Shown: positions 2,882 to 16,047 of the stretch, in pieces
Position numbering within the stretch: the stretch's first letter is position 1
How the letters are laid out: each line of letters starts with the position of its first letter
NCBI RefSeq assembly: GCF_000014565.1
Contig: NC_008268.1
Span: 3,596,001 to 3,660,000, forward strand
Source: Rhodococcus jostii RHA1
GTDB taxonomy: Bacteria; Actinomycetota; Actinomycetes; Mycobacteriales; Mycobacteriaceae
Length of the DNA: 64,000 nucleotides
Direction: 5' to 3'
Made by a program: the position numbers and the translations under genes
The notes under the pieces: generated by a model
What the model was told of the DNA's origin: nothing
The model's database searches: none
Seen by the model: the letters and a program-made list of their open reading frames with translations, nothing else

Positions 2882-3400
2882 ATGAAGACCAGAGGTCAAT
2901 TGGTGGTAGCCGTCGGCGCGGGATTTCTCCTGGGGCGGAGGACCGCGAAGCTCGCGAGTTCCCCGGAAGTCGCCAAACTGATCGAGACCATTCGGGGAGA
3001 CCTGATGAGCTCCGCGAAAGCCGCGGCGGTCACCGCGGTCAGCTCGCGTATCGATTCGCTGAGCAGCCGGCTCCAGTCGAGCGGCGAGAACCCGGTGGGC
3101 GGCGTGGGCCAGGTGGCCGACACCAAGCGGAGGTCGAGCGAGACCCGCGACAGCCACCCCGCCGAGCCGGAAGAGAGTGCAGGAGAGGAGCAGGCCGAGG
3201 AGACGGGCGTTACCGACGAAGACGGCACCGAACCGCCGCAACAGGAGGAACAGCCGAGGCGCCCTCCCCGCGTCAGACGGACCCGGGACGCAAGCACAGC
3301 CAAGGAAATTCGGGAGTGGGCCGTTCAGCAGGGACTCGAGATCTCCTCGCACGGCCGCATACCTGCGAACATCGAGCACGCTTTCCGCGACGCCCACTGA
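2882..3400 (+). CDS. Gas-vesicle-associated-type protein with Lsr2-like DNA-binding C-terminus
   Basis: The product is 172 residues. The N-terminus (AVGAGFLLGR, then SSPEVAKL and a helix AKAAAVTAVSSRIDSLSSRL) is closely related to the protein of the gas-vesicle operon at 7550-8307. An acidic, probably disordered linker covers residues 70-135. The last 30 residues (REWAVQQGLEISSHGRIP ... AFRDAH) resemble the C-terminal DNA-binding domain of Lsr2, whose RGR core is here HGR. The ATG at 2882 follows GGGAGA. The inference is a protein that links the SSPEVAKL module to DNA. The Lsr2 similarity is by eye and should be confirmed by a profile search. Confidence 0.75.
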   Translation: MKTRGQLVVAVGAGFLLGRRTAKLASSPEVAKLIETIRGDLMSSAKAAAVTAVSSRIDSLSSRLQSSGENPVGGVGQVADTKRRSSETRDSHPAEPEESAGEEQAEETGVTDEDGTEPPQQEEQPRRPPRVRRTRDASTAKEIREWAVQQGLEISSHGRIPANIEHAFRDAH

Positions 3401-3979: not shown

Positions 3980-4221
3980 CCGCACCAATTGGTTGCGATG
4001 CGCAACGCAACCCTCGATCCCGGCGGTTCCAGTACCCCGCTGGGGGGTTCGATCCGGCGGGGTACCGGGCCACCGCGCCGGGCAGGCGCGGCGACATCAT
4101 CAACGGTAACCGTGTCGTGGGCAGTTCCGGGTGCGAGCGGTCTTCACGCGGAACCACAGACCGGGCCGAAGATCAAGCACTGATCCAGATGCTGTCGAGC
4201 GTGCGGACGCGGTGATCATCG

Positions 4222-4626
4222 TTACTCGTCACCGTTATCGCCTCGCCGCCTGCCCGCCACCTCCATCGGCGTACCCGACTCCACCTCGAGATGTATCGAC
4301 CGGTCGGACTCGAGTGCGGCTATCCGCTCCTTCAGCTTTCGATTCTCGAGTTCGAGGTCACTGCTCTTGCCGGTCAGCCAGGGATCGTTCTCCCACCAGT
4401 TGATCCCGACCTCCTTCGCCGTCTCCAGCGAGGCGATGACCAACCGCACCTTGATCGTCAGCAGTTCGATGTCGACGAGGTTGACCTGAATGTCCCCGGC
4501 GATCACCAGGCCCTTGTCGAGTACCCGCTCGAGGATTTCCCCGAGATTCGTCGACTGGTGCCCGCCGCCCATGCCACCGGCGGGGCTCTGCGGGAGACGC
4601 CCGGAGTCGCCACTGGACAAGGTCAT
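4222..4626 (-). CDS. gvpJ: Gas vesicle protein GvpJ/GvpA family (GvpJ-like)
   Basis: The product is 134 residues. Residues 23-75 are the GvpA/J fold (LGEILERVLDKGLVIAGDIQ, then VDIELLTIKVRLVIAS), which forms or nucleates the gas-vesicle shell. After it come NWWENDPWL and a coiled-coil-like tail (ELENRKLKERIAALES), both features of GvpJ/GvpS proteins rather than the major shell protein. It is the last gene of the operon; its ATG overlaps the stop of gvpO by four bases (ATGA). The tail is polar and ends in Gly/Asp-rich sequence. Confidence 0.85.
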   Translation of the reverse strand: MTLSSGDSGRLPQSPAGGMGGGHQSTNLGEILERVLDKGLVIAGDIQVNLVDIELLTIKVRLVIASLETAKEVGINWWENDPWLTGKSSDLELENRKLKERIAALESDRSIHLEVESGTPMEVAGRRRGDNGDE

Positions 4627-4913
4627 GACTGCCCGCCCGTGCTGTCGCAGGCGCCGCGGCCGTAGCGCCGGGTTCTGTGGTAGGCCAACAACTCTCCATC
4701 CAGCTCCAACACCACTTCGTACAGGGCGAGCAGGTCGGTCGAGGACGGGATGCGCCGATCCTCGACCACTTCCACTTCCACGGTCCACCCGTCGTCGGTC
4801 GGCATCACCGACGTCGCACCGAGCGGCTTCTTGCCCGTCAGCTGGGTGATGTCCCGCACCGCGACCTCGGCGATGTCCTGCGCCGGCAGTGTCGGTGGCT
4901 GCTCCTGCGCCAT
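4623..4913 (-). CDS. gvpO: Gas vesicle protein GvpO
   Basis: The product is 96 residues. The core (AVRDITQLTGKKPLGATSV, then GWTVEVEVVEDRRIPSSTDL and YEVVLELDGELLAYHRTRRY) matches the GvpO family found in actinobacterial gas-vesicle clusters, an accessory protein required in haloarchaea but of unknown mechanism. The ATG at 4913 is chosen because the family core begins about 20 residues later; the longer frame is basic and unlike the family. It is coupled to gvpJ downstream and separated from gvpF by 125 bases that contain an inverted repeat. Confidence 0.85.
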   Translation of the reverse strand: MAQEQPPTLPAQDIAEVAVRDITQLTGKKPLGATSVMPTDDGWTVEVEVVEDRRIPSSTDLLALYEVVLELDGELLAYHRTRRYGRGACDSTGGQS

Positions 4914-5000
4914 GACCTGCTCACTCCTTCTCCCGAGTGGTGGCCGCGCCCGTCTGGTCATCCGGTGGCGAGGTCACGCCACGCACCCGCGCCCGCGCGA

Positions 5001-5027
5001 GGTGTCGGCGTGACGATCAACGACACC
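5001..5027. repeat. Inverted repeat GGTGTCG / CGACACC in gvp operon
   Basis: Perfect 7-base arms lie at 5001-5007 and 5021-5027 with a 13-base loop. It occupies the only sizeable gap inside the operon, between gvpF and gvpO, so it may act as an internal attenuator or mRNA-processing hairpin. It has no T-tract. Confidence 0.4.
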
Positions 5028-5038
5028 TGCCCATCGCC

Positions 5039-5845
5039 TCAGCCCTCCGGCGTCGGGGACAGCACGAAGTCGTAGGCGGCGAGCGGTCCGAGCAGCCGCA
5101 TCTCGACCCGGCCGTCCCACTGCTCCGCCAACGCTCCCACCGCCTGCTCGAGCTCGTCCTGCCGGGCAACCTCGACCAGGACCGCCACCTGGGCGGCATC
5201 CTCCTCGTGGGTGGGTTCGCGGACGTTGACCGAGTCGGCCAGCGAGTCGAGGGCCTCGACCACCGTGGCCGTATCTTCCTCCCGCTTCGCGACGATGGCG
5301 TTGGCCACGATCTCGCCGAGGGCCATCCGGGCGTCGCGGGTGGCGGCCTCCGGCTGGTCCCGGATCGTGTCGCGCAGGGCGCTGGCCCGCTCGTTCTCGC
5401 CGATCACCTCCCACAGGATGGCGTGTTCGACGTAGCGGCCCTTCACCACGTATTGGGCCTTACCCTCGAGTTCCTCCATGGCGGCGGCGAACTCGTCGGC
5501 GTGCGCGGTGAGCAGTTCGTCCTTCACTGCGTCGGTGTCGGTCAGGACCGCCCCGAACCGCAGCGGCAGTACCGGTGCCACCCGCGCAACACCGTCCAGC
5601 AGGTGGGCGTGGGCCTGGAGGTCCGCGGGTTTACCGATCGGCCGGTCCACCGAAATTTCACTGACCAGCGCCGCGATGTCGCCGTGTTTGATGGTGCTCA
5701 CCCGCGAGTCGTCGACGCCGACCGCGTCGTCTTCGGTCTCCACATCCGCGGGCACGATGCCGTAGACGTAGACGCCGGTGGTACGCGGCTCTTCGGACGC
5801 ATCGGCAGCCTGGTCCGACGCATCGGCCTGCTTCGACGTGGACAT
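5039..5845 (-). CDS. gvpF: Gas vesicle protein GvpF/GvpL family
   Basis: The product is 268 residues. It has the two-lobed GvpF/L organisation: an N-terminal lobe beginning TGVYVYGIVPADV and containing HGDIAALVSEI and VLPLRFGAVL, then a C-terminal lobe ending RLLGPLAAYDFVL. GvpF/L proteins bind GvpA and assist early shell assembly. Start choice: ATG at 5845 overlaps the gvpA stop as TGATG; a GTG at 5848 is also in frame. An acidic linker of about 25 residues precedes the family core. Confidence 0.9.
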   Translation of the reverse strand: MSTSKQADASDQAADASEEPRTTGVYVYGIVPADVETEDDAVGVDDSRVSTIKHGDIAALVSEISVDRPIGKPADLQAHAHLLDGVARVAPVLPLRFGAVLTDTDAVKDELLTAHADEFAAAMEELEGKAQYVVKGRYVEHAILWEVIGENERASALRDTIRDQPEAATRDARMALGEIVANAIVAKREEDTATVVEALDSLADSVNVREPTHEEDAAQVAVLVEVARQDELEQAVGALAEQWDGRVEMRLLGPLAAYDFVLSPTPEG

Positions 5846-6219
5846 CACTTGTCCCCTCTACTGGATTTACGTGACACCCGCTCGCGCTCGGGCTCCTCTT
5901 CTCCGCCGCCGAGGAGGTCACCGAGTTTGTCGCCGGCAGCCTCGAGCGCGCCCTTGGTCTTCGACTTGGCACCGCCCTCAGTGGCGCCGCCCACCAGGTC
6001 GGACAGGCCCTTGGGTTCGCTGCCGATCTCGAGCCGATTCACCGCCTCCGCGAACCGCAGATACGTGTCGACACTGGCCACGACGATGCGGGCGTCGATC
6101 GTCAACAGTTCGATCCCGACCAGCGAGACCCGCACGTACGCGTCGATGACCAGACCCTTGTCCAGGATGGTGTCGATGACGTCGGCGAGGCTGCTCGAGC
6201 TGGGCCCACCGGTGGTCAT
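5845..6219 (-). CDS. gvpA: Gas vesicle structural protein GvpA family
   Basis: The product is 124 residues. Residues 9-60 are the canonical GvpA shell sequence ([49 protein letters not shown]). Unlike the roughly 70-residue major GvpA of cyanobacteria, a 60-residue extension follows, Gly/Lys-rich and ending in a basic segment ([13 protein letters not shown]). This tail could decorate the vesicle surface or place the protein in the GvpJ/M group. The ATG at 6219 overlaps the upstream stop as ATGA, so translation is coupled. Confidence 0.85.
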
Positions 6220-7550
6220 CGGCGGGCTCCTCGCCTCGAGGCGGCGGACTTGGTGGCCGCGGTCTTGCGTGGGCGGCCACGGCGTGCCGGTGCAGTGTCT
6301 TCACCCGACGCCGCGGTCTTGCGTGGGCGGCCACGGCGTTTCGGCGGTTCACTCGCGGCCGCGGTCTTGCGCGGACGGCCGCGGCGTGCCGGCGCGGGCG
6401 CCTCGTCCTCCTCGGCCTCCTCGTCGACCGCTTCCTCACCCTCGTCCTCGTCGGCCTCGTCTTCCTCTGCCTCGGGTTCCTCGTCCTCGGCTTCGTCTGT
6501 TTCCTCCGGCTCCTCGTACTCCTCGTCCTCACCCTCGCCCTCGTCAGCCTCGGCTTCGTCTGCCTCGGGCTCCTCGTACTCGTCCTCTGCCTCGGGCTCC
6601 TCGGTCTCGTCCTCTTCGCCCTCGTCCGGCTGGCTTTCGTCCTGTTCGTCTTCCGTTTCCGCCTCGTCCTCTTCGGGCTCGACCACCTGACCGTCCCGGA
6701 TTTCTCCGCGCCAGCCCTCGACGTCGTCGGGATGGAGGATCGACTGTGTCATGACGTGGCGTGCAAAGTGTTTCAATTCCAGCCGTGCTCGTCGTCCCTG
6801 TGCACGCCAGAGGTTTCCCGTCTTCTCGAACAATCCCTTCGGGTGATACTCGAGGATCAGAACGATGCGGGTGAGATCCGGGGTCACCTCGTGGAACGTC
6901 ACCGCACCGTCGATGAACCCCTTGGCGCCCTTCGAGCGCCACACGATCCGCTCGTCGGGAACCTGCTCGAGGATCGTCGCTTCCCAGGTTCGGTGCGACA
7001 GGAAGATCTGCGCCTTCCACTCGAGCTTCTCGTCCGCTTCCTGCTCGACCCGTTCGACCTTCTTCATGAACGACGGAAAGTCGGCGAATTGGGTCCATTG
7101 GTTGTAGGCCAGCTGAACCGGGACCCCGACATCGATCGTTTCGACGATGTTGGTCAACTTCAGCTTCTTGCCTTTTCCGCTACCGCCACCACCACCGCCG
7201 GTGACCGCGTCCTTGAGGTCGGACGCCTTGTCCTTGACCGTCTGCTTGGCGCCCTCCCACCAGCCGCCACCGGTGTCGGACTCGTCCGGTGACTCATCGT
7301 CATCTGACTCATCGTCATCCGTTTTCTCGGAACCGGTGAGGGCGGCGAGCAGCCCTCCTTCGCCGCCGTTCTCGGCGTACTCGGTGAGCCGCCCGGAGGT
7401 GTTCGCCACCTTGTCCGAGACCGAGGACAGTGCCTTCTCGGCGACCGTGCCGACCAGCCTCTGCATTGCTTCCTGCAGCACGCTCGACGCGCCGTCCCCG
7501 TCACCCGGTGCGGCCTCTCGTAGTTTCTTCGCGGCGCTCGTCATCGCCAT
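6216..7550 (-). CDS. GvpZ-like SRPBCC protein with acidic linker and three AT-hooks
   Basis: The product is 444 residues. Residues 1-130 are helical and Gly/Asp-rich. Residues 130-280 form a cyclase/dehydrase-type SRPBCC fold ([50 protein letters not shown]). A Glu/Asp-rich tract of about 110 residues follows, then three copies of [10 protein letters not shown], the classical AT-hook that binds AT-rich minor grooves. Streptomyces gvp clusters carry a similar SRPBCC gene called gvpZ. ATG 7550 overlaps the upstream stop (TGATG); GTG 7553 is an alternative. Its link to gas-vesicle assembly rests on operon position only. Confidence 0.8.
6256..6386. repeat. Three 29-base repeats encoding AT-hooks
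   Basis: Near-identical units begin GCCGCGGTCTTGCG at 6256-6284, 6310-6338 and 6358-6386. Each encodes [10 protein letters not shown] on the minus strand. The third unit has the most changes. Unequal exchange between units could change the hook number between strains. Confidence 0.75.
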
Positions 7551-8307
7551 CACCTCCGTGCCCGTCGGACGGGCGCTGAATCAGTGGTGGCCTTGGCCCG
7601 TGTCCTGCGTTTGCGGGCAGGAGCCTCTTCGTCGTCTTCGTCTGACTTCGCGGTTGACTTCGCGGTCCGCGATCTGCTCGCGGTGGGCCGGGTGCTGCCG
7701 GAGTTCGAGGCCCGGCGGCGCGGCGTGGGCCGCTTACGGGGGGCCGGTTCCTCGTCGGCCTCGTCTTCGTCCGGCTCCTCGGCCCCTGCCTCGTCCTCGG
7801 CCCCTGCCTCGTCCTTGGCCGCTGCCTCGTCTTCGCCGCGCTCCTCGTAGTCGTCGGCCTCGTCTTCCTCGTCGGCGAGTTCGTCCTCCGGCTGTTCGTC
7901 GGTACCGGGCTGCTCGTCGTCCCGCGAGCGAGTGCGCTTCTTGCGACCGAATCTGCTCACCTTGGTGACATCGGTGACGTTGTCCGTGGCATCACCGACG
8001 GTGCCCGTGATCTCCTGGCCGCCCGATTGCAGCCGGTTGCTCAGCGAGTCGATGCGCTGGCTGGCAGCGGTGACCGCTGCCGCCTTCGCCGCGCTGACTA
8101 GTTCACTCCGGACCGTGTCGCCGAGTTTGGCGACCTCCGGGGAATTCGAGAGCATCTTGGTGCCGAGGGTGAGCAGCTCCCGCGGCCCGCCGGGGAAGCG
8201 CCCGGCCGTCCGGCCCCGGCGAGCATCAGTGCCAGCTTCATCCGGCGGGTGCGCCCCAGCAGATAGCCCGCACCGATCGCGGCCGCCATCTGAGTCTTGT
8301 TGTTCAT
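7550..8307 (-). CDS. GvpY-like membrane-anchored protein, interrupted by a frameshift
   Basis: The start is ATG 8307 (AAGGGG upstream), giving MNNKTQMAAAIGAGYLLGR and about 33 residues in one frame. After about 8211 the protein continues in another frame (RFPGGPRELLTLGTKML, then SNSPEVAKL) to the stop at 7550. The homologous protein at 2882 has both parts in order, so one base is missing, or two are extra, in the GC-rich run near 8203-8213. As written, the first frame ends after about 70 residues. The C-terminal half is acidic repeats (EDEAGA) followed by basic RKRPTPRRR and RKRRTRAK tails. Either a sequencing error or a true lesion is possible. Confidence 0.7.
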
Positions 8308-8636
8308 CGTGGAACCCCTTTTTTGCCGAGTGGTCACTTAGCACCTCTCGCCAACCTCGGAGATGTGCCGCAGGACCGTTTCGGAGATGTGCCGCAAGAC
8401 CGTGCGCGGTAGGGGTGCGCGTTTTTTGACTACCCCAACCCGGGAATACTCAATCACCATGCCGGTCGGCGACGAAGACACCCTGTTTCCCTGTCATGCG
8501 CGTAGCGATCGGCCGAACCTGAGACTGACTCGCACGGCACTGCCTCTCGGATATGTTGCCGTGCAGGCATTGAGCACTGTGCGGTCGTCGTGTGCCGCCT
8601 GCTCACGAAATCGGTACTGCCCGCCCGTCGATCAGG
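8308..8636. other. Upstream region of the gas-vesicle operon
   Basis: These 329 bases lie between the stop of the gene at 8637 and the operon start at 8307. They contain the 22-base direct repeat at 8357-8402 and a T-run followed by CCCGGG near 8421-8443. No gene is supported. A clear SigB/F-type promoter for the operon was not found here. Confidence 0.5.
8357..8402. repeat. 22-base tandem direct repeat upstream of gvp operon
   Basis: TCGGAGATGTGCCGCA, followed by G/A and GACCG, occurs at 8357-8378 and 8381-8402 with one mismatch and a 24-base period. It lies 50-95 bases upstream of the first operon gene, so it could be an activator site or a remnant of a mobile-element end. Confidence 0.7.
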
Positions 8637-9548
8637 TCAGCCTGCGGCGGCCCGTACCGCCGCGACGATCGCCATGACAAGCAGGGCCAGCAGCAGGACC
8701 ACGAGCAGTACCGGCCCGAGGAGGAGTCCGAGGGCCAGGAGGAGGAGCAGGGCGATCTTGGCCTTGGTGCTCAATCCGGAGGCCAGTCCTTTGATCGCCG
8801 CCCACACCGGATTCTTACCCGTCAGGGCGGCCCGAACGCCCTCGAGTCCGGCTTGCATGCCCACCCCGCCGTGCGCGACCTCGTCGACGAGGGTTTTGAT
8901 CCACTCCTGGATCTTTCGTTGGATTTTGTCCGTCAGCACGGCGCCGCGGTCTCGCGCCGCCTCCAGCAGCCGGTGAAAGTGGGTTTTGAGCCATTCGATG
9001 GCGGCCTCGACCGACCGCGACACCATGCCCGGGGTGGTGTCGGCGGACCCCCCGCGGTCGGTGTCCTTCGCTGACGAGTCCGGTCGGCTTGGGCGAGTCG
9101 GTGCGGTGGACCGCGGGTGCGCGGACGTGCGCGGCCCCTCACCTCGGGGATGCGTGCGGGCCGCCGGCTTCGCGGTGGTGGCCCGCGCCGGCGCACGCCC
9201 GGAGGACTCCTCGCCGTCGGCGCGCCGCCGACGGGGTGTGCCCGAGGCCGACGCGGCGGCGGTGTCCGTTCGCTTCGGTCGTGGCGTCGGCTCCGCCGTC
9301 CGTGGGCTGCTGCGCCGCGAGGTGGCTCTGGTCGAGGTCGCGGCGGCCGGACGCCTGCGCGGCAGCCGCCCCGCCTCGGTTGTGGCGGTCGCCGCGAACC
9401 TTTTCGCCGCCGTGGATGCTCGGGCCTTCGGCTTGGTTTCGGCGGCCGTAGCCAGGCTGCCGGCGCCCGTGTTCTTGCCCGTGCCGACCGCGCCGCGACG
9501 GCGCGATGTGACCGGCGTCCGGCCGTCCGTTCTCGCTCGTGCACCCAT
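8637..9548 (-). CDS. Basic H1-like, C-terminally membrane-anchored protein
   Basis: The product is 303 residues. Residues 1-170 are low-complexity Arg/Ala/Thr/Pro-rich, strongly basic and histone-H1-like. Residues 180-255 are amphipathic helices (VEAAIEWLKTHFHRLLEAAR). Two closely spaced hydrophobic stretches at 258-300 (KIALLLLLALGLLLGPVLLV) form a membrane anchor. The ATG at 9548 is chosen because a near-perfect GGTTT-N16-GGGTAC promoter ends 10 bases upstream, leaving almost no leader. The gene lies directly upstream of the gvp operon on the same strand. Function unknown. Confidence 0.7.
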   Translation of the reverse strand: MGARARTDGRTPVTSRRRGAVGTGKNTGAGSLATAAETKPKARASTAAKRFAATATTEAGRLPRRRPAAATSTRATSRRSSPRTAEPTPRPKRTDTAAASASGTPRRRRADGEESSGRAPARATTAKPAARTHPRGEGPRTSAHPRSTAPTRPSRPDSSAKDTDRGGSADTTPGMVSRSVEAAIEWLKTHFHRLLEAARDRGAVLTDKIQRKIQEWIKTLVDEVAHGGVGMQAGLEGVRAALTGKNPVWAAIKGLASGLSTKAKIALLLLLALGLLLGPVLLVVLLLALLVMAIVAAVRAAAG

Positions 9549-9557
9549 ACATCGCAA

Positions 9558-9584
9558 GTACCCCCGGGTCGATCCGCGGAAACC
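9558..9584 (-). promoter_or_regulatory. SigB/SigF-type promoter, GGTTT-N16-GGGTAC
   Basis: On the minus strand GGTTT (9584-9580) and GGGTAC (9563-9558) are separated by 16 bases. This is the best match in the window to the general-stress promoter consensus of actinobacteria. It lies immediately upstream of the ATG at 9548. Confidence 0.6.
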
Positions 9585-9716
9585 GGATTCAGCGCCGAAC
9601 ACTGCACCGACGCGACACCACCGTCGCTATTCGACCACTGGATCTGGAACTGCTCTCGGCTGAGACGGGCTCCGAGTCCCGGACCGTTGGGATGACCGAG
9701 TGACCGGTGTGGAACG

Positions 9717-10130
9717 TCAACCGAAATCCTTTGCGGGAGCACCATCCCACAGCAATTCGGTGACGTCGTGGAAGCAGACGAGCGTGACGGGGTCGTCGTG
9801 ACGCTCGAGCACCGACTCGCTGACGAATGCGCGAACGGTCGAGCCGTCTCGATGCGTCAACGCGACGAGTTTCCCGGCGCTCTCCCGTAACTCGGCCACG
9901 GCCGACGGGCCCGGGGACGCCGTCTGCATCAGATCACCGATCAAGTGGTTACCGACCTCGTTCGGTGGATAATCGAGCATCCGCTCGAACGCCCGGTTCG
10001 AGTACACGACGACACCGTCGTGTTGCACCGCGAGGACGGGCACCGGCAACCGCTCGAGCAACACGAGAGCGGGTAACCGCTCGAGGTAACCCAGCGCGGT
10101 GTCCGGGTCCGGGCGTCGTCTCTCGTCCAT
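9717..10130 (-). CDS. PAS domain protein
   Basis: The product is 137 residues. A single PAS domain covers residues 22-130 (LERLPVPVLAVQHDGVVVYS, NRAFERMLDYPPNEV, GSTVRAFVSESVLE, VTLVCFHDVTELL), ending with the characteristic D-V-T-E-L. No output domain is attached, so it must act through a partner, perhaps the GAF-ANTAR protein encoded 107 bases upstream on the same strand. The ATG at 10130 is the first codon giving a sensible N-terminus; the longer frame is Cys/Val-rich and not family-like. Confidence 0.75.
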   Translation of the reverse strand: MDERRRPDPDTALGYLERLPALVLLERLPVPVLAVQHDGVVVYSNRAFERMLDYPPNEVGNHLIGDLMQTASPGPSAVAELRESAGKLVALTHRDGSTVRAFVSESVLERHDDPVTLVCFHDVTELLWDGAPAKDFG

Positions 10131-10237
10131 ATGTCGATCATCAACCTTCGTCGTCTTCCTTACAACGACCGGCGGCACCACCGCACAATAACGTACCTGA
10201 CATTCGAAGCCGAGCAGTGCGCAATCGTGGCCGGTTC

Positions 10238-10918
10238 TCAACTACGTTCGGTAATCCGCTGCGCGATAACACTCAACCGGGTATTAGTCTCCTGGGAGAG
10301 TCTGCTGAGCAGCTCGAACGCACGGATCGCGTCGATGTCGAATCGCTCCATCAGCATTCCCTTCGCCTGCCCGATGACGTCACGTGAGGCTACCGCTGAT
10401 CGCAGCTGCTCTTCGGTCCGCGCGGCGGTCAGCGCCAACGCGGCATGGGCTGCGAGCACCTCGCCCGCTACTTCCTCGTCAGGACCGAACGCGCTCGGAG
10501 TGAACGCAAACAGGTTGAGAGCTCCCATCTTTCCTTCCGAGGTATACAGCTGAAAGGACATCGAACTGAGAATCCCCACATCGACGGCGGCCGCAGCGAA
10601 CTGCGGCCACCGCGGTTCCGAGCGAAAGTCCTCGCTTCGCACCACGAGGTTGTTGAGCGCCGCCGCCACGCACGGTCCTTGCCCGAGTTGCTGCTGAGCG
10701 TGGTCGAGCTTTCGGAGCAGCTCGGATGTCGGCGCAACGGTCTCGAATTTCTTGCCACCGGAGATGAGCAGAATGCCCGCGCACGTTTCGTGCGGCATCA
10801 GCTCGACCACTGCGGCGGTGACAGCGCGCAGGCGTTCGTCAAGGGTGCGCGGTGCGGAGAGACTGCGAGCCAGATCGGCCATGGTGCGACTGAGGTCCCC
10901 GGCGCTGGAATCGCTCAT
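10238..10918 (-). CDS. GAF-ANTAR domain regulator
   Basis: The product is 226 residues. Residues 10-160 form a GAF sensor domain (CAGILLISGGKKFETVAPTS, QQLGQGPCVAAALNN, GALNLFAFTPSAFGPDE). Residues 165-225 form an ANTAR domain (ASRDVIGQAKGMLMERFDID, AFELLSRLSQETNTRL). GAF-ANTAR proteins regulate termination in target leaders in response to small ligands. The ATG at 10918 follows GAGGAG at good spacing. It may be co-transcribed with the PAS gene downstream. Confidence 0.88.
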   Translation of the reverse strand: MSDSSAGDLSRTMADLARSLSAPRTLDERLRAVTAAVVELMPHETCAGILLISGGKKFETVAPTSELLRKLDHAQQQLGQGPCVAAALNNLVVRSEDFRSEPRWPQFAAAAVDVGILSSMSFQLYTSEGKMGALNLFAFTPSAFGPDEEVAGEVLAAHAALALTAARTEEQLRSAVASRDVIGQAKGMLMERFDIDAIRAFELLSRLSQETNTRLSVIAQRITERS

Positions 10919-11137
10919 AACCGCTCCTCGGTTCGATCGAAAAGGATGACTGCAGGTAGCCACCCACACCACCATAAGCACCCCGTCTCCTGGGCCGAAC
11001 CGGAAATGCAGGTTCTTTCCATTGGCGGGGAGTGCGGCGCTGTTTCGCTGAAGGGAACGGCACGTCTTTTCGCGGTGATCGGGGTGAAGCAGCATCGGTG
11101 CGCGTAACGCCGTGGCACCCGTTCCGCTGTCGCCGTG

Positions 11138-12050: not shown

Positions 12051-12077
12051 GTGTTAGCGAACGGCGCGGTTGGGTAC
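12051..12077 (+). promoter_or_regulatory. Stress-type promoter, GTGTT-N16-GGGTAC
   Basis: GTGTT (12051-12055) and GGGTAC (12072-12077) are separated by 16 bases. It lies 79 bases upstream of the hemerythrin ATG and is back-to-back with the promoter at 12006-12030. Confidence 0.5.
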
Positions 12078-12155
12078 AGCGTAAGTACGACGTCACCGTG
12101 CCCGCGATCAGTTGCGATGGACGACGTGCACGTCCCGGCCAACTGTGAGGTACTC

Positions 12156-12656
12156 ATGTCCACTGATGCGATCGTGCTCCTGAAGAACGACCACAAGGAG
12201 ATCCGGAAACTGTTCCGTGACTTCCGCGGTGCCGGGCCGAACGCCCGCGTGGAGAAAGGTCGCATCGTCGACGACATCATCGAAGCCCTCACGGTGCACA
12301 CCTACATCGAGAACGAGGGCATGTACCCGGAGGTGCGCGATCTCGCCCCCGACCTCGAGGACGACATCCTCGAATCCTACGAAGAGCATCACGTCGCGGA
12401 CGTGCTGGTCGTCGAGCTGGCCGCCATGAAGCCCGACGACGAGCGGTTCGACGCGAAGACTACCGTCCTGATCGAGAACGTCGAACACCACATCGAAGAA
12501 GAAGGGCAGAAATGGTTCCCCAAGGTGCGAGAAGCGCTGGGACGTAAACAACTTCGGGAGATGGGTGCGCGGATGCTGGAGCTCAGAGACAAGGCACCGA
12601 GGTCTCCCGCCCGGCCGTCGGCCCTGAAGAAGACGGTCGACGCGGTGATCAAATAG
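12156..12656 (+). CDS. Hemerythrin HHE-domain protein
   Basis: The product is 166 residues. The four-helix HHE cation-binding pattern is visible: LLKNDHKEIRKLFRDF, VHTYIENEGMYPEV, YEEHHVADVLVVEL and NVEHHIEEEGQKWFPKVREA supply the His and Glu ligands of a di-iron site. Actinobacterial single-domain hemerythrins are linked to redox and NO or oxygen stress. The ATG at 12156 follows GTGAGG. The C-terminus is a basic Ala/Pro/Lys tail. Its stress-type promoter and the neighbouring catalase support an oxidative-stress role. Confidence 0.9.
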   Translation: MSTDAIVLLKNDHKEIRKLFRDFRGAGPNARVEKGRIVDDIIEALTVHTYIENEGMYPEVRDLAPDLEDDILESYEEHHVADVLVVELAAMKPDDERFDAKTTVLIENVEHHIEEEGQKWFPKVREALGRKQLREMGARMLELRDKAPRSPARPSALKKTVDAVIK

Positions 12657-13674: not shown

Positions 13675-15813
13675 TCATACCTGGCGCTCCCAGACGCGGT
13701 GGGACTTCATCAGCGCAGTGAGGCCGTCGAACAGTGCGGACGCGTCGTCGGCGATCACGATGCCCGGGGCCTCGGCCGAAATTCCGGCCGCTTCGAGGAG
13801 GCCGCGACCGGCGGCCCATCCCCCGATCGCCTTGCAGTGCCGGAACGCTTCGGTCAGCAACACCTGCACCCGCGGGTCCGACGCCGGCGCCGCAACGAGG
13901 ATGGCGTCGAACTCCACCGATCGCATCGTGAGGAACGTCCGGGACACCGGGACGGCGCCCTTGCCCGACCCCAATTTGCCACCGTGCGGTCCGATGACGA
14001 GCGGCACCATACCGTTCTTGCCGATCATCTCGACCGCGTCGGCCACCTCGGACAGATCCGACTCGTCGTCGGCGACGATGCCGATGATCCGGCCGTCCAG
14101 CGGCCACTCGGCACCGACCTGTGACAGCGCGGGACTGGGCGTCGGAGCCGCGTCGTAGGCGACGGTCGGCGCGGGCGCCGGGAGTCCGAGACCCGCGGCC
14201 ACCTGCTCACACAGTTCGGGATCGATGTTCGCGACGACCTCGAGGGCGCGCTCCTTGATCACCTGCTCATAGCACTTGCCCAGCTCGAACGTATAGGCCT
14301 CCGCGACGTGCGCCTGCTCGACCGGGCTGAGGCTGGCGTAGAACAGTCTTGCCTGCGAGAAGTGGTCGTCGAAACTCGCGGGGGCGGCGCGCAGTTTCGT
14401 CGACTCCGGCATCGGCACCGGCACCTCGACGAACGCCGTGTCCGCTCCGGCCAGGAACGGGCAACCTGCGTCGAGCGAATTCGGCCGATACGGCGCGACA
14501 CCCGGATGGACTCCCGTCTGGTGCATACCGTCGCGCAGCATGTCGTTGACGTCGGCCTGGGGCCGATTGATCGGTATCTGCCCGAAGTTGGGCCCGCCGA
14601 GCCGGCTGATCTGGGTGTCGAGGTAGGAGAACAACCGCGCCTGCAGTAGCGGGTCGTCGGTGACGTCGATCCCTGGTACGAGGTGCCCGGGGTGGAACGC
14701 CACCTGCTCGGTCTCGGCGAAGAAGTTCGTCGGATTCGCGTCGAGCGTCATCAGCCCGATCGGCTGCACGGGGGCCAGTTCCTCGGGCACCATCTTGGTC
14801 GGGTCGAGCAGGTCGATGCCCTCGAACGTCTGGTCCGGGGTGTCCGGGAACGCCTGGATGCCCAGCTCCCATTCCGGGTACGCGCCGGACTCGATCGCGT
14901 CGGCGAGATCGCGGCGGTGGTAGTCGGGGTCCATGCCGTTGACGATCTGAGCTTCTTCCCACACCAGCGAGTGCACACCGAGTTTCGGCTTCCAGTGGAA
15001 CTTCACGAGCGAACTCTCGCCCGCCGCGTTCACCATCCGAAAGGTGTTGACGCCGAAGCCTTCCATCATCCGATACGACCGCGGGATACCGCGATCGGAC
15101 ATGTTCCACAACGTGTGCGCGGTAGCTTCCGTGTGCAGGGACACGAAGTCCCAGAAGGTGTCGTGCGCGCTCTGCGCCTGCGGAATCTCGCGATCCGGAT
15201 GCGGCTTGGCAGCATGGACGACGTCGGGAAACTTGATGCCGTCCTGAATGAAGAAGACCGGAATGTTGTTTCCCACCATGTCGAAAGTGCCTTCGCCGGT
15301 GTAGAACTTGGTCGCGAACCCTCGGGTGTCGCGGACGGCGTCGGCCGATCCTCGGGAGCCGAGGACGGTGGAGAACCGGACGAAGACCGGCGTCTCGACG
15401 TCCTTGCCGAGGAACGCCGCCTTGCTGATCGGGTCGGCGGAACCGTATCCGCGGAAGACGCCGTGGGCAGCCGCGCCGCGCGCGTGTACCACCCGCTCCG
15501 GGATCCGCTCGTGATCGAAGTGCGTGATCTTCTCACGAAGATGGTGGTCCTGGAGCAGGGTCGGTCCCCGGGTTCCCGCCTTGAGCGAGTGGTCGGTGTC
15601 GTACAGCCGCGCGCCCTGCGACGTGGTGAGGTGCTCACCTTGCTGGCCACGGGCAGTGTCCGGGCCTTCGACGGGTTGCCCGGTCGCGCTGCCCAGCGCG
15701 GGAGCCCGCTGATCCGGCTTCGGGGGCAACGGCTCAGTGGGTTCCGTGGGCTCGGCGAGCGTCGGGGTACCGGAACCGGGAGTTCCGGGGATGGGCGGGT
15801 TCTTTTTGGGCAC
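13675..15813 (-). CDS. katE: Large-subunit catalase, HPII/KatE type
   Basis: The product is 712 residues, the size of clade II catalases, which split hydrogen peroxide to water and oxygen with haem. Visible elements are the distal His in RIPERVVHARGAAAHG, the Asn segment GNNIPVFFIQD, and the proximal Tyr in RLFSYLDTQISRLGG. The C-terminal 140 residues (GRIIGIVADDESDLSEVADA ... ) are the flavodoxin/DJ-1-like domain typical of HPII. GTG 15813 is chosen because CGAGGAGC precedes it; the longer frame is not family-like. A Pro/Thr-rich 60-residue extension precedes the core. Confidence 0.93.
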   Translation of the reverse strand: MPKKNPPIPGTPGSGTPTLAEPTEPTEPLPPKPDQRAPALGSATGQPVEGPDTARGQQGEHLTTSQGARLYDTDHSLKAGTRGPTLLQDHHLREKITHFDHERIPERVVHARGAAAHGVFRGYGSADPISKAAFLGKDVETPVFVRFSTVLGSRGSADAVRDTRGFATKFYTGEGTFDMVGNNIPVFFIQDGIKFPDVVHAAKPHPDREIPQAQSAHDTFWDFVSLHTEATAHTLWNMSDRGIPRSYRMMEGFGVNTFRMVNAAGESSLVKFHWKPKLGVHSLVWEEAQIVNGMDPDYHRRDLADAIESGAYPEWELGIQAFPDTPDQTFEGIDLLDPTKMVPEELAPVQPIGLMTLDANPTNFFAETEQVAFHPGHLVPGIDVTDDPLLQARLFSYLDTQISRLGGPNFGQIPINRPQADVNDMLRDGMHQTGVHPGVAPYRPNSLDAGCPFLAGADTAFVEVPVPMPESTKLRAAPASFDDHFSQARLFYASLSPVEQAHVAEAYTFELGKCYEQVIKERALEVVANIDPELCEQVAAGLGLPAPAPTVAYDAAPTPSPALSQVGAEWPLDGRIIGIVADDESDLSEVADAVEMIGKNGMVPLVIGPHGGKLGSGKGAVPVSRTFLTMRSVEFDAILVAAPASDPRVQVLLTEAFRHCKAIGGWAAGRGLLEAAGISAEAPGIVIADDASALFDGLTALMKSHRVWERQV

Positions 15814-15952
15814 GGCGTAGCTCCTCGCTGAAAATCCGTGGGATCGGCGCCGCATCGTGGCTGTACGGGCCGTTCTTCTCGGAGTGCCCAAACGTTCGCA
15901 AAACGAATCAGCGTTGGCGCAGCGCCACAACTTGTCCCCAATCGGAAGATGC

Positions 15953-15978
15953 GGTTTCGCGTTCGCATCCCAGGGCAT
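15953..15978 (+). promoter_or_regulatory. SigB/SigF-type promoter, GGTTT-N15-GGGCAT
   Basis: GGTTT (15953-15957) and GGGCAT (15973-15978) are separated by 15 bases, 70 bases upstream of the start at 16048. Confidence 0.5.
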
Positions 15979-16047
15979 AGCTACAACAGATGTCAACCAC
16001 GAAGAAAGTGAGAATCCGGCGTTCCGCTGCGCCGGCAAGGAGTGAAC

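Follow-up and report, generated by a model that had tools for sequence, protein, structure and literature searches.

Among the closest described counterparts of the genes considered here are the two gas-vesicle (gvp) clusters of Streptomyces coelicolor, cluster 1 (SCO6499-6508) and cluster 2 (SCO0649-0657), whose expression is linked to stress according to the available parts of the two papers that describe them (PMC5839063, PMC2631018). One of them also states that gas vesicles have never been found in soil-dwelling bacteria (PMC5839063). Why do soil actinobacteria that do not float retain gas-vesicle genes? The question is open, and it is raised again by a gvp operon of Rhodococcus jostii RHA1, which lies in a stretch of 64,000 nucleotides (the window; C1:3596001-3660000 in a genome of 9.70 Mb and four contigs) and occupies positions 4222-9602 of it on the minus strand. 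We consider it probable, at about 0.72, that the operon arose as a second copy of a gvp cluster and has partly decayed, that its gvpG, gvpL, gvpS and gvpK were likely deleted, and that its remaining proteins act together with one complete cluster.

The genes of S. coelicolor carry the same names (O, A, F, G, Y, Z, J, L, S and K) and form two clusters per genome; for Y and Z the likeness is one of name, in what is available of the two papers. Cluster 2 has G2, J2, L2 and S2, whereas the window copy is without G, L, S and K. That cluster 2 might itself be without gvpL and gvpS was considered and rejected: the table in PMC5839063 ends at gvpJ2, and the accessible text of PMC2631018 names gvpL2 and gvpS2. 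A vesicle-forming host, Serratia sp. ATCC 39006, also has genes named gvpY and gvpZ, which in the accessible parts of the papers are alike by letter only (PMC4982088, PMC10344784), and the accessible part of the former contains no occurrence of a partition gene or of a nucleoid link. For a Rhodococcus exposed to arsenite, an enrichment of gas-vesicle formation terms is reported in the part of the paper at hand (PMC13118703). Among the titles and abstract openings found in the open-licence literature on gas vesicles together with Lsr2, AT-hooks or the nucleoid, none has DNA-binding gas-vesicle proteins as its subject.

The window operon begins with a gene for an Arg-rich protein with a hydrophobic C-terminus and continues with gvpY, gvpZ, gvpA, gvpF, gvpO and gvpJ. 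The same gene order is found in a complete cluster of the same genome (L014, C1:258-263.5 kb), Y-Z-A-F-G-O-J-L-S-K, and the GvpZ cores of the two are identical over 180 residues. The complete cluster retains G, L, S and K, whereas its upstream Arg-rich gene is broken (L014:4532-4906) and that of the window is open. A search of the genome with profiles of GvpK, GvpG and GvpN had been set beforehand. It located an intact GvpK at C1:263286, an apparently broken one at C1:766303 with matches in two frames, and two copies of GvpG at C1:261313 and C1:764848; no GvpN match reached the cut-off of 266.8 bits in the genome, even in the complete cluster (best match 39.7 bits). A GvpN hidden elsewhere was rejected, as the matches lie under the cut-off and the same weak signal occurs in 12 of 14 control genomes. 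PF00741, the family matched by GvpA and GvpJ, has 12 places in the genome, and GvpL/F has seven, one of which is a fragment.

How the window operon came to lack gvpK and gvpG is suggested by a sister copy (L016, C1:759.6-765.8 kb). Window positions 4238-10174 align with L016:2601-8753 in three pieces of 96.2, 96.2 and 90.9% identity. Two of these pieces are separated in L016 by about 139 bp (7892-8030), within gvpG, that are absent from the window; there, a degraded remnant of gvpG is placed between gvpF and gvpO (4968-5038, minus strand). Beyond gvpJ, 121 bp in the window replace 864 bp of L016, a segment that comprises a gvpL fragment, gvpS and a broken gvpK; a further 97 bp then match (4020-4116, minus strand; 82% to L016:9618-9713, the sequence downstream of the sister gvpK) and mark the place where gvpL-S-K would be expected. 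No intact gvpK or gvpG was found in the window operon by the whole-genome profile searches, which gave no GvpG match at the remnant, and GvpL, GvpS and GvpK are absent from it according to profile searches and locus comparison. Since the gaps stand against a copy that is 91-96% identical, gvpG, gvpL, gvpS and gvpK were likely lost from the window operon by deletion. An earlier note, made from the letters of this DNA, had reported no gvpK, gvpG or gvpN in or near the operon and had argued from the missing genes to a special organelle. It was right that no intact gvpK or gvpG is in the operon and had passed over the gvpG remnant; its argument from missing genes fails, because the same genome has gvpK and gvpG in a complete cluster and the losses appear as gaps against the sister copy.

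Of the 28 genomes of the genus, 14 carry PF00741 and 13 carry GvpK; in the family the corresponding numbers are 48 and 47 of 251. The sole exception in the family is G009, in whose locus (L063) gvpA, gvpF and gvpO are broken. A stand-alone system consisting of an operon without gvpK was rejected on these numbers. One genome (G003) has a second, partial GvpK match of 61.3 bits. Complete and gvpK-less loci were counted among the loci examined, namely long loci from 11 of the 14 PF00741-positive genomes of the genus, parts of G004 and G005, and G016 as table rows. Among them, an intact gvpK together with the complete order is present in eight loci (L014, L045, L046, L047, L048, L049, L053 and L061), and an intact gvpK in no other. 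Four clusters resemble that of the window and each is broken differently: L016 has a fragmentary gvpL and a broken gvpK, L052 a gvpJ cut short, L055 a gvpF cut short and a broken gvpJ, and L063 is without G in addition to its broken A, F and O. A smaller Y-Z-A-F type of locus, in some cases with G or with additional A and F, recurs (L015, L050, L059, L060, L062, L064, L092, L093 and L094), and so do pairs of Y and A (L017, L051 and L054). Four of these satellite loci have short gvpF-like pieces upstream of gvpY (L015:8637-8750, L050:11113-11226, L064:10307-10504 and L093:8173-8438), which are possibly traces of tandem duplication.

These counts bear on the proposal of the earlier note that the reduced operon builds, independently of GvpK, GvpG and GvpN, a vesicle-like shell of its own that is tethered to the nucleoid or the membrane rather than forming buoyant vesicles. 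Such a shell would fit the DNA-binding-type tails of GvpZ and a nearby Lsr2 fusion (both described below), the hydrophobic C-terminus of the upstream protein and the recurrence of Y-Z-A-F loci without gvpK. However, GvpK is absent from just one of the 48 GvpA-type genomes of the family, and there the locus is broken; the retained gene set varies between relatives, and GvpZ of the complete cluster bears the same kind of tail. An autonomous shell without GvpK is thus unsupported, and we regard it as very improbable.

The individual genes of the window operon, all on the minus strand, are for the most part well assigned. The shell protein gene gvpA (5845-6219) matches PF00741 with 54.7 bits and NCBIfam NF006872 with 161.6 bits (cut-off 151), gvpF of the GvpF/L family (5039-5848) matches PF06386 with 206.6 bits and is identical to the L016 copy in 269 of 269 residues, and gvpO (4623-4913) matches PF05800 with 90.1 bits. 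The product of gvpJ (4222-4626; PF00741, 55.6 bits) shares 117 of 134 residues with the L016 copy; the starts of gvpO and gvpJ were set by alignment with the L016 copies. gvpZ (6216-7553) encodes an SRPBCC core (PF03364, 67 bits), an acidic linker and a basic tail. GvpA, GvpF, GvpO, GvpJ and the core of GvpZ exceed their Pfam cut-offs, which upholds the assignments of GvpA, GvpJ-type, GvpF/L, GvpO and SRPBCC proteins in the earlier note. Close named protein matches are mostly from Rhodococcus, and the coordinates give 4-bp overlaps at Y/Z, Z/A, A/F and O/J. GvpY is not intact: compared with the L016 and L014 copies, a frameshift parts the 5′ portion with the hydrophobic N-terminus (8098-8307) from the 3′ portion with the basic tail (7550-8203). 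The gene described as a GvpY-like anchor with a basic tail is present, with anchor and tail in different frames rather than joined; the frameshift may be a sequencing error. The basic protein noticed directly upstream is real (8637-9602), with a hydrophobic C-terminus, and is the usual first gene of these clusters: relatives precede gvpY in seven of the eight complete clusters (the L014 copy is broken, and L045 has no match) and in L016, L052 and L055.

Is the operon simply dying? As a decaying duplicate it would have no function and would not depend on the complete cluster. The frameshift in gvpY, the gap in gvpG, the missing L, S and K and the breakage of related clusters at different genes would fit such decay, as would the weak constraint seen between the window and L016, where the ratio of nonsynonymous to synonymous substitution rates (dN/dS) is 0.94 for the upstream gene and 0.54 for gvpO. 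Against it, GvpA, GvpF and GvpZ of the window are intact, and dN/dS for GvpA and the GvpZ core is near zero between gvpK-less loci of different genomes, a pattern that gene conversion could mimic. Over the pairs computed, dN/dS ranges from 0.00 to 0.05 for GvpA, 0.00 to 0.13 for the GvpZ core, 0.00 to 0.32 for GvpF, 0.05 to 0.26 for GvpJ, 0.12 to 0.54 for GvpO and 0.26 to 0.94 for the upstream Arg-rich gene. Two points tell against taking the low ratios as constraint. The comparison of the window with L016 rests on few differences, gvpA and gvpF differing at three sites each, all synonymous, while gvpJ differs at 38 of 402 sites. Moreover, synonymous divergence between the two is uneven along the operon (0.015 for F, 0.22 for J), so that the low ratios may in part reflect gene conversion. 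The uneven pattern fits constraint on A, F and Z and gene conversion alike, and these data give no means of telling one from the other. On balance, a functionless remnant seems unlikely to us.

Because GvpA and GvpZ are retained with low dN/dS, the extra loci without gvpK likely feed the complete cluster. They would be kept as additional suppliers of the shell protein GvpA, of GvpF as its partner and of the accessory GvpZ, and K, L and S would come from the single complete cluster. Most likely, we think, the operon serves as a satellite whose GvpA, GvpF and GvpZ supplement what that cluster makes; a link to DNA is an unproven extension of this picture. Duplication and loss explain most of the finding, and what remains unusual is that paralogues of GvpZ and GvpY carry modules of a DNA-binding type. 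Satellites with GvpA and GvpZ that repeatedly lack gvpK, together with modules of three kinds, raise a direct question: are these proteins on the nucleoid? If they are, gas-vesicle proteins would have a chromosome-linked role; if they are not, plain gene duplication and decay is left.

The first kind of module is carried by the window gvpZ itself, the tail of which contains three AT-hook-like RRGRPRK motifs (6264-6386, minus strand; 6264-6284, 6318-6338 and 6366-6386). A whole-genome search for the motif as a DNA pattern, with CGN as the only Arg codons at positions 1, 2 and 4 and with Ser also allowed at position 6, gave eight occurrences in 9.7 Mb, seven of them in gvpZ (one in L014, three in L016 and three in the window); the reversed control pattern occurred once. 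The eighth (L090, C1:5076167) lies near the C-terminus of a small acidic protein, about 115 residues long, which has this one motif and no gvp likeness noted. The second kind is represented by gvpZ of L015, whose long AKK-repeat tail matches the histone-H1-like Pfam family HC2 with 52.5 bits (cut-off 40). The sequence RGRP is present in 12 of 20 GvpZ tails examined in the genus; those of L015 and L050, which are without it, are AKK-type, and those of L059 and L060 are KSTRT-type. A crude sorting of the best 120 of 7997 GvpZ matches, partial proteins included, gave 80 with RGRP, 4 H1-like, 2 basic and 34 with neither.

The third kind is found beside the operon, on the plus strand, where a gene for 172 residues (2882-3400) encodes a GvpY-type N-terminus, matched to GvpY copies by BLAST, fused to an Lsr2 DNA-binding domain (PF23359, 38.8 bits, cut-off 26.9). 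The C-terminal domain aligns with Lsr2 structures (PDB 6qkq, 6qkp and 2kng) over 38-39 residues with E values of 0.003-0.004. The fusion differs from Lsr2 in its GvpY-type N-terminus; the N-terminal oligomerisation domain of Lsr2 was not found in it, PF23359 being the only match at E 0.1. In the predicted structure, two helices at the N-terminus, modelled with low to moderate confidence, are followed by a disordered linker and a confidently placed pair of C-terminal helices; the mean predicted local distance difference test score (pLDDT) is 59, and the C-terminal domain alone is confident (82-91 per block). A protein search gave 24 proteins, 13 of which have the Lsr2 domain, the window's own included. 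Among the matches listed for the genus, there are at least six clear fusions in at least four of the 28 genomes, and of the six listed, five have a gvpA-type place no more than 13.9 kb away; this zone, set by the largest distance observed, makes up 1.4-2.3% of those genomes. The two in G005 (C3:307 kb and C5:192 kb) are situated in blocks that resemble each other and probably do not count as independent cases. A pattern scan of named genomes gave three clear fusions (L037-L039) and five matches spanning the Lsr2 part only. Runs of four consecutive Lsr2-domain matches were also seen, at L040:10031-11323 and at L063:3416-4615, the latter about 2.6 kb from a gvp locus.

Several observations weigh against a link to DNA. 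The Pfam AT_hook scores of three GvpZ proteins, 16.6 for the window and 17.1 and 16.8 for the others, are all below the cut-off of 17.4, and a second H1-type tail (P0088) reaches 28.2 bits with HC2, below the cut-off of 40. RGRP is missing from 8 of the 20 tails in the genus. It is present in only 2 of 17 GvpZ proteins from seven genera, a sample drawn from GvpK-positive genomes with the weak match L113 left out, so that AT-hooks are not general. RGR is the DNA-contact motif of Lsr2; it is found in 11 of 13 aligned proteins, and the window fusion has HGR. The sixth listed fusion is on a contig of 44 kb and has no gvp genes nearby, and three long matches of lower score (G008:C5:456621, G005:C3:8815275 and G010:C6:4205307) lie more than 100 kb from the listed PF00741 places. 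In the 17-protein sample, an acidic linker (15 or more Asp and Glu) is present in 16, and the last 40 residues contain 3-15 basic ones; with RGRP in two of the 17, the putative AT-hooks are best seen as a local addition to a tail of wider occurrence. No GvpZ match was found at E 1e-30 in two genomes of one genus that have GvpA and GvpK.

A tail of this general kind might bind some other polyanion, such as RNA, polyphosphate or the acidic linkers of partner proteins, and not DNA. Such binding is possible, though we do not favour it: it would suit both the linkers and basic ends that occur mostly without AT-hooks and the alternation of acidic stretches with basic tips in GvpY and GvpZ, but not the near confinement of near-consensus AT-hook motifs to gvpZ in the genome, the HC2 match or the Lsr2 domain on a GvpY paralogue. 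The AT-hooks that the earlier note saw on GvpZ correspond to three RRGRPRK repeats and fall just short as a Pfam domain, and its idea of DNA binding gains support at the level of sequence from these motifs, the H1-like tail and the fusion.

Since the accessory tails are predicted to bind DNA, gas-vesicle proteins may be attached to the chromosome in this bacterial group. GvpZ, through the AT-hooks or H1-like repeats of its basic C-terminal tail, and the GvpY-Lsr2 fusion next to the operon would then hold GvpA assemblies on the nucleoid, which could, for example, serve to partition them at division. In its widest form, gvp proteins of large-genome Rhodococcus would have been recruited to a nucleoid-bound system, in which AT-hooks, histone-H1-like repeats and the Lsr2 domain would serve as interchangeable modules on GvpZ and GvpY paralogues, holding GvpA assemblies on AT-rich chromosomal DNA, with the many Y-Z-A-F satellites feeding it; we regard this as doubtful.

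Regulator genes of the PAS-ANTAR, PAS and GAF-ANTAR types flank gvp loci, in the window at 1873-2556, 9717-10205 and 10238-11095 (all on the minus strand) and at L015:3823-4554. ANTAR proteins are RNA antiterminators. The PAS-domain gene at 9717-10205 (PF00989, 35 bits) lies within the duplicated segment and has its duplicate in L016; its relatives adjoin gvp genes in L016, L050 and L056, and fragments are present in L052 and L055. Among the stress genes that the earlier note mentioned around the operon are those for a hemerythrin-domain protein at 12051-12656 and a large catalase at 13675-16038.

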